A stretch of 58,518 nt of DNA from Pseudomonadota bacterium (lineage in GTDB: Bacteria; CALINM01). The translations under genes were made by a program, and so were the position numbers. The stretch is from positions 1 to 58,518 of the forward strand of contig JAOABK010000004.1 of the NCBI GenBank assembly GCA_026418415.1, written 5' to 3'. The first letter of the stretch is position 1. Each line of letters begins with the position of its first letter. Below the pieces are notes generated by a model. The model was given only the letters and a program-made list of their open reading frames with translations, was not told the DNA's origin and did no database searches. Positions 16,392 through 17,630 of the stretch are shown piece by piece.

Positions 16392-17408
16392 TTATAATTT
16401 TTTCTCACTAAATTTTGCAAGTTCACATAGTTTTTTTACAACTTTTTCAAAATCCTCTACTCTTAATGATTGAGGTCCATCGCATAATGCCTTTTCTGGT
16501 TCTGGATGCACTTCGATGATTAGACCATCCGTTCCACAAGCCATTGCCGCATAACAAAGAGGTGGAACTAAATTTCTTGCTCCAGTAGCATGTGAAGGAT
16601 CAATAATTATTGGCAAATGTGACAACTCTTTTATTACAGGTACTGCAGAAATATCAAGTGTGTTTCTTGTTGCTGTTTCAAAGGTTCTAATACCTCTTTC
16701 ACACAACACAAGGTCTTTGCATCCCTCTGATAAAATATATTCTGCTGACATAAGGAATTCTTGAATTGTAGTTGCCATACCTCTTTTAAGAAGGACTGGT
16801 TTGCCAAATTTTCCAGCCTTTTTCAAAAGAGCAAAATTCTGAACATTTCTGGCACCAATCTGAAGCATATCAGCATATTCGCCCACTAATGCCACGTCTT
16901 CGGGATTAATCACTTCTGTGACAAAGGGCAGTCCCGACTCTTTCCTTGCCTTGGCGAGTAATTTTAATCCCTCCTTTTCTAATCCCTGGAAGGCGTAGGG
17001 CGAGGTTCTTGGTTTAAAAGCCCCGCCCCTTAACATATGGGCACCAGCCTCTTTAACCTTTATAGCGGTATTAACTATTTGTTTTTCTGATTCTACAGAA
17101 CAAGGACCTGCAATTATTCCAAAATACTCTCCTCCAAATTTTGCCCCCTTTACATCAACAATTGTTGGATCCTTTTTAAACTCTCTACTTGCAAGCTTAT
17201 AGGGCTTTAGTATTGGCACAACCTTTTCCACACAAGAAAGCGCCTCTAAAGCTTGAAGCTTATATTTACCCCTTTCATCACCCACTGCTCCCACAACAGT
17301 TCTTTCAACCCCCACTATTGTGTGTGGTTTAAATCCTAATTCTTTTACCTTCTTTTCAACCGTCTTTACATCCTCTTTGCTACAGCCTGGTTTTAAAACA
17401 ATAATCAT
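16392..17408 (-). CDS. aroF: 3-deoxy-7-phosphoheptulonate (DAHP) synthase, AroF type with N-terminal regulatory domain
   Basis: 338 residues from ATG 17408, which I prefer to an upstream in-frame start because AAGGAGGT sits just before it. It condenses phosphoenolpyruvate and erythrose-4-phosphate, the first step of the shikimate pathway. Residues 1-70 resemble the ferredoxin-like regulatory domain of class I-beta enzymes (MIIVLKPGCSKEDVKTVEK); the TIM barrel follows with GPCSVESEKQI, RGGAFKPRTSPYAFQG, LQIGARNVQNF, KRGMATTIQEF, CERGIRTFE and IIDPSHATGARNLV. The gene is preceded by a strong promoter, a structured leader and an attenuator-type terminator, so transcription is probably regulated by premature termination. 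The TolA-like gene starts 8 bp downstream. Confidence 0.96.
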   Translation of the reverse strand: MIIVLKPGCSKEDVKTVEKKVKELGFKPHTIVGVERTVVGAVGDERGKYKLQALEALSCVEKVVPILKPYKLASREFKKDPTIVDVKGAKFGGEYFGIIAGPCSVESEKQIVNTAIKVKEAGAHMLRGGAFKPRTSPYAFQGLEKEGLKLLAKARKESGLPFVTEVINPEDVALVGEYADMLQIGARNVQNFALLKKAGKFGKPVLLKRGMATTIQEFLMSAEYILSEGCKDLVLCERGIRTFETATRNTLDISAVPVIKELSHLPIIIDPSHATGARNLVPPLCYAAMACGTDGLIIEVHPEPEKALCDGPQSLRVEDFEKVVKKLCELAKFSEKKL

Positions 17409-17436
17409 AAGACCTCCTTTTTGAGTAATTAAAAAT

Positions 17437-17476
17437 AAAAAAGCCACAGAAGCTTAAGCGCCACTGTGGCTTTTTT
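17437..17476 (-). terminator. attenuator hairpin in the aroF leader
   Basis: A 13-bp perfect stem (AAAAAAGCCACAG at 17437-17449 with CTGTGGCTTTTTT at 17464-17476) and a 14-nt loop. Read on the minus strand it ends in TTTTTTATTTTT and lies 28 bp before the aroF start codon, downstream of the leader promoter: the arrangement of a transcription attenuator. The ascending arm contains the self-complementary GCCACAGTGGC, so alternative pairings are possible. Confidence 0.8.
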
Positions 17477-17503
17477 ATTTTTTATATCTATAAATTTATA
17501 AAA

Positions 17504-17596
17504 TTATGCAAAAACCATCAGCGGCACTCCCTGAGCAGAGCTTAAATTGCTAAATCGAATAAATCGAAAGGATTTATAAGTGCCTTGCTGATGCAT
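17504..17596 (-). CDS. possible 30-codon leader peptide upstream of aroF (Phe/Tyr codons)
   Basis: A short ORF runs from ATG 17596 to TAA 17504, coding for MHQQGTYKSFRFIRFSNLSS followed by ten more residues. One Tyr and three Phe codons fall within nine codons (7-15), which suits attenuation of a DAHP synthase gene by aromatic amino-acid supply. There is no Shine-Dalgarno, and the predicted transcription start coincides with the ATG, so it would have to be translated as a leaderless ORF. The same stretch also folds into a strong stem, so it may be untranslated structured RNA instead. Confidence 0.4.
   Translation of the reverse strand: MHQQGTYKSFRFIRFSNLSSAQGVPLMVFA
17516..17593 (-). ncRNA. 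structured leader RNA of aroF (riboswitch-like or attenuation leader), class unknown
   Basis: On the minus strand CATCAGC (17593-17587) and GGCACT (17584-17579), separated by a 2-nt AA bulge, pair with AGTGCC-GCTGATG (17528-17516), a 13-bp closing stem. Inside is a second hairpin, ATAAATC/GATTTAT (17577-17571 with 17565-17559, loop CTTTC), and a weaker third, AGCA/TGCT (17551-17548 with 17537-17534). This gives a three-way-junction outline starting almost at the 5' end of the predicted transcript. I do not recognise TPP, SAM, T-box, c-di-GMP, glycine or THF riboswitch cores in it. A terminator hairpin follows 40 nt downstream. Confidence 0.6.
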
Positions 17597-17602
17597 ATTT
17601 AA

Positions 17603-17630
17603 ATTATACATAAATAAAACCAATGGTCAA
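17603..17630 (-). promoter_or_regulatory. sigma-70-type promoter of aroF leader
   Basis: On the minus strand TTGACC (17630-17625), a 16-bp spacer and a perfect TATAAT (17608-17603). The start of transcription would fall near 17596, at the first base of the leader stem and of the small leader ORF. Confidence 0.75.

Follow-up and report, generated by a model that had tools for sequence, protein, structure and literature searches.

A putative phenylalanine-sensing, ribosome-mediated attenuator with an apparently leaderless leader peptide upstream of the DAHP synthase gene aroF

The arrangement of the region upstream of aroF strongly suggests that this gene is preceded by a ribosome-mediated transcription attenuator, which senses charged tRNA-Phe and perhaps also Tyr. 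The gene encodes DAHP synthase, the first enzyme of aromatic biosynthesis, and was found in a 58,518-nucleotide stretch of DNA, called here the window. From a promoter, a leader ORF, mutually exclusive pairings, a terminator and their conservation, all present in the sequence, we infer a leaderless start, the stalling of the ribosome, the signal and the direction of the response. The initial annotation had assigned the region to no recognised class. This was wrong, because the leader has the parts of a classical 1:2 / 2:3 / 3:4 ribosome-mediated attenuator. Of the two readings offered at that time, Phe attenuation is now supported by in-frame Phe codons conserved in three genomes and by a strong competing antiterminator. 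The features are listed in Table 1.

Table 1. Elements of the aroF leader in the window and loci with comparable leaders in other groups
Feature	Positions	Strand	Remarks
-35 box TTGACC	17625..17630	minus	Counterparts TTGACT in G001 (L002) and TTGACA in G002 (L003)
-10 box TATAAT	17603..17608	minus	Predicted transcription start 6-7 nt downstream
Leader ORF, 30 codons, MHQQGTYKSFRFIRFSNLSSAQGVPLMVFA	17504..17596	minus	Apparently leaderless; L002 and L003 have corresponding ORFs whose start geometry is the same
Arm 1	17579..17593	minus	Pairs with arm 2
Conserved putative stall stretch CGATTTATTCGATTTAGC, Arg-Phe-Ile-Arg-Phe-Ser	17549..17566	minus	Rare CGA codons before Phe codons
Arm 2	17510..17531	minus	Pairs with arm 1 or, alternatively, arm 3
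Arm 3	17456..17476	minus	5' arm of the terminator; pairs with arm 2 in the antiterminator
Arm 4	17437..17454	minus	3' arm of the intrinsic terminator, with T-run
aroF	16392..17408	minus	DAHP synthase with N-terminal ferredoxin-like domain; putative controlled gene
Geobacter-type scan positives			L039, L040, L044, L045, L047, L048
Mostly Verrucomicrobia-labelled scan positives			L104, L108, L110, L111, L112, L114

The leader is located on the minus strand between aroF and a divergent ligA-like gene, the translation of which reads as an NAD-dependent DNA ligase. Its promoter is composed of TTGACC, a 16-nt spacer and TATAAT, matching the consensus at 11 of 12 positions, and both boxes are found where the TATAAT promoter had been proposed. 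The ATG of the leader ORF at 17596 follows the -10 box by 6 nt, and a TAA ends the ORF at 17504. One Tyr and three Phe codons had been reported among nine codons of this 30-codon ORF, and they are indeed present in codons 7-15. The ORF had also been said to begin exactly at the predicted transcription start; the ATG lies at this start or within one base of it. The distance from the -10 box to the ATG is 6 nt in the window genome and 7 nt in each of two relatives, all 5' ends being predictions. The leader ORF is thus apparently leaderless, with the 5' end of the mRNA probably at the start codon. That the ORF is open is in itself little proof, because a mononucleotide-shuffled leader ORF remains open 18% of the time.

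The comparison covered the three available genomes of the phylum to which the window belongs, so small a number that the earlier label Deferribacterota is doubtful: the window genome (G000), one of the same genus (G001, locus L002) and one of the same family (G002, locus L003). All three share the same layout, in which a promoter with its -10 box is followed after 6-7 nt by an ATG, a Phe-rich mini-ORF, a long stem, a terminator and aroF. The leader peptides are MHQQGTYKSFRFIRFSNLSSAQGVPLMVFA in the window genome and MHQHGTCFYMRFIRFSLFFILCGVPLMVFA and MLQKTVCTSIFIRFSRFSK in the same-genus and same-family relatives, respectively. An attenuator is expected to have a short leader ORF with its start and stop before the terminator, a cluster of codons for an amino acid of the pathway, and a controlled gene belonging to that pathway. 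Such an ORF, with at least three Phe codons within nine, is found in all three genomes, and the target is DAHP synthase. The in-frame Phe codons, the conservation of which the initial annotation had proposed to check, are kept in every case.

The 18-nt stretch CGATTTATTCGATTTAGC is identical in the same-genus relative, is matched at 17 of 18 positions in the same-family genome, and is in frame in all three; as a mismatch-free pattern, it has no other occurrence across the three genomes. It encodes R-F-I-R-F-S in the two congeneric genomes and R-F-S-R-F-S in the third. Between the two genomes of one genus, codons 7-10 and 17-22 are all changed, whereas codons 11-16, which form this stretch, and the codons of the stem arms are conserved with the exception of codon 4. 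In the same-family genome the letters of the arms of stem 1:2 differ, yet their pairing is kept. Both the pairing arms and the Phe stretch are therefore maintained, a pattern that an attenuator, but not an aptamer, would be expected to show. The formal covariation signal is weak, because only three genomes are compared and two of them, belonging to one genus, have near-identical arms.

Each of the three leader ORFs has two Arg codons. These six codons are without exception CGA, with a Phe codon TTT directly after each. In the long ORFs of the window's contig, CGA accounts for 2.6% of the Arg codons. The six codons are not independent, given the close relationship of two of the genomes. A CGA before a Phe codon may lengthen the stall. 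The preservation of the R-F-I-R-F-S stretch even at wobble positions, while the neighbouring codons have diverged, could also be understood if the nascent R-F-x-R-F-S peptide arrested the ribosome together with a small-molecule signal, as in TnaC, rather than through simple starvation for tRNA-Phe. Such an arrest is improbable: Phe codons and rare CGA codons account for the conservation more simply, the Phe content outside the motif varies, and the Geobacter-type and Verrucomicrobia counterparts described below are rich in aromatic residues but do not have the motif.

The predicted antiterminator formed by arms 2 and 3 is the key piece that was absent from the initial annotation. In the window genome it comprises 19 bp with one bulge and has an energy of -27.3 kcal/mol (-27.4 kcal/mol in the same-genus relative), compared with -20.6 kcal/mol for the competing helix 1:2 and -23.4/-25.7 kcal/mol for 3:4. 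In both of these genomes, arm 2 was subjected to 500 dinucleotide shuffles, and no equally good 2:3 pairing resulted. When the RNA downstream of a presumed stalled ribosome is folded without arms 1 and 4, the 2:3 helix is predicted to form. The mutually exclusive pairings 2:3 and 3:4, also expected of an attenuator, are thus found in both genomes of the genus and in a weaker form in the same-family genome. There, the strict test of arm 2 against arm 3 is not significant (z -0.8). Only once the target was lengthened into arm 4 did an alternative turn up, a split helix of 12 bp with an energy of -15.8 kcal/mol that reaches into arm 4 and was at least matched by 16 of 1000 shuffles. The stop codon of the leader lies just past arm 2 in the two congeneric genomes, and therefore a ribosome at the end of the peptide would occupy this arm; in the same-family genome the stop codon is about 10 nt before arm 2.

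By combining these observations, it is possible to propose how the attenuator operates. The first transcribed base would be the A of the leader ATG or lie within one base of it, and the ribosome would hence load onto a leaderless mRNA. When Phe-tRNA is scarce, the ribosome would stall at CGA-TTT..CGA-TTT, between arms 1 and 2, which would leave arm 2 to pair with arm 3 as the antiterminator and allow RNA polymerase to proceed into aroF. When Phe-tRNA is ample, the ribosome would reach the TAA past arm 2 and cover this arm, the 3:4 terminator would form, and aroF would be off. If no translation takes place, 1:2 and 3:4 would both form and aroF would likewise be off. Among the points against an attenuator is the position of the ribosome: if stalled at codons 12 or 15, it would leave most of arm 1 behind it and not under it. 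Timing and the strain in the 47-nt loop must therefore account for any blocking of 1:2.

The predicted fold of the whole leader has an energy of -57.9 kcal/mol (z -5.9), and none of 200 shuffles was equally stable. Two elements appear in its minimum-energy form, the 13-bp stem (7 + 6 bp, interrupted by an AA bulge) and the terminator hairpin, each in the place given to it earlier; the gap between them is about 33 nt and not 40 nt as had been thought. A contact that had been suggested between the loops of hairpin 3 and the terminator is possible in terms of base pairing; as the sister species lacks a loop equivalent to that of hairpin 3, however, the contact is probably incidental.

The initial annotation had also considered a riboswitch-like aptamer. 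On this reading, an aromatic metabolite would be bound by the 13-bp stem together with the two hairpins inside it, and the terminator would serve as the expression platform. The 5' domain of the window sequence does fold as a closed multi-branched element; folded alone, it is less exceptional (z -1.85) than the whole leader. Its inner hairpins, however, are kept neither in the sister species nor in the same-family genome, little is conserved beyond the stem arms, the terminator and the Phe codons, and the conserved letters of the loop are these same in-frame codons. The comparison with Rfam that had been proposed gave no match to a known unrelated class, and no credible RNA family was found for the leader at gathering or permissive thresholds. 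Neither a T-box nor any Rfam riboswitch scores above the gathering cut-off, the whole window matching only a tRNA. The Rfam Phe_leader model (RF01859) matched at 24.9 and 23.6 bits, below its cut-off of 55, the better match being on the opposite strand. An aptamer is thus very improbable. Hardly credible is a plain early terminator or a small RNA made from the leader promoter without regulated switching, since, strong as the terminator is and able as the leader may be to build up as a short RNA, the 19-bp antiterminator of two species and the in-frame Phe codons of three would be left unexplained.

In all three genomes, a second copy of the DAHP synthase gene (L117, L118, L119) is situated just downstream of the prephenate dehydratase gene pheA (L129-L131) and an aminotransferase-like gene. 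A leader of the aroF type is absent upstream of the other DAHP synthase copies in these genomes. The regions upstream of pheA, pheS, ilvB and trpE are mostly intra-operon and no comparable leader was seen in them; no convincing leaderless leader was found upstream of ilvB and trpE. The genes leuA and hisG were located in addition, the upstream comparison covering the four genes named before.

The closest precedent for the Phe attenuator proposed here is aroR-aroF of Corynebacterium glutamicum, in which a leader peptide containing Phe-Tyr-Phe precedes the DAHP synthase gene (PMC4046766) and, according to a review, read-through rises on Phe limitation (PMC11802643). It belongs to an unrelated organism and has Phe-Tyr-Phe in place of R-F-x-R-F-S, a comparison based on the published description of the peptide. 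The Phe leaders of Escherichia coli carry a ribosome binding site, unlike the apparently leaderless ORF of aroF. Two of them, pheL-pheA and pheM-pheST, resemble the aroF leader in their Phe codons, alternative hairpins and intrinsic terminator (PMC11802643) but control different target genes. The predicted start resembles that of the trpL RNA of Sinorhizobium meliloti, whose first nucleotides are the ATG of the leader peptide (PMC7298713); trpL, however, attenuates trpE(G) in response to Trp and belongs to an Alphaproteobacterium. Before their own case in Firmicutes, leader-peptide systems were, to the knowledge of Naville and Gautheret (2010), unknown outside Proteobacteria and Actinobacteria (PMC2965389). 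No earlier description of the aroF leader in this lineage was found in the open-licence literature. As far as this literature was searched, the attenuator is new for the lineage and ordinary in kind, its uncommon features being the probable leaderless start and the rare-codon stretch. A phylum sampled by three genomes gains with it a putative Phe-sensing attenuator of the first step of aromatic biosynthesis, and this leader offers a simple system for studying how rare codons tune a stall. Should the leaderless starts prove real, attenuators that begin in this way do without a Shine-Dalgarno sequence, which bears on how first-round ribosomes catch RNA polymerase.

The regions upstream of 101 DAHP synthase genes were scanned for promoter-like -35 and -10 boxes with an aromatic-rich mini-ORF 5-10 nt further on. 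Fourteen were positive, whereas 50 mononucleotide shuffles gave 0.62 on average and 3 at most; this is an enrichment and not a probability, because the loci within groups are related, the shuffle ignores dinucleotides and the Geobacter-type -10 boxes are weak. The positives are the two genomes of the window's genus, six Geobacter-type loci and six mostly Verrucomicrobia-labelled loci (Table 1). Such ORFs are also present, outside the cut-offs of the scan, in L041 (Geobacter-type) and in the same-family genome (L003). In the Geobacter-type leaders arm 2 pairs with arm 3 (GUCCACCC with GGGUGGAC), two positions being changed on both sides in L039, and the Verrucomicrobia leaders have a comparable alternative helix. 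Common descent is not claimed, because the sequences of the groups look unrelated; the leaders of the two other groups apparently arose independently. It is tempting to speculate that leaderless, aromatic-rich leader peptides repeatedly control DAHP synthase across phyla, ribosome loading being coupled to the transcript's first nucleotides, and that in the window's lineage either the rare CGA before Phe or the nascent R-F-x-R-F-S peptide tunes the stall. This generalisation is tentative, and the balance tilts somewhat against it.

The Verrucomicrobia-type leader peptides (L104, L108, L110-L112, L114) start with GTG and mix Phe, Tyr and Trp codons (FFGYFSGWYWFTS), which suggests a general aromatic sensor. 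In the Geobacter-type aroF leaders (L039-L048), a second hairpin with a T-run follows the attenuator terminator, and these leaders may thus have two tandem terminators.
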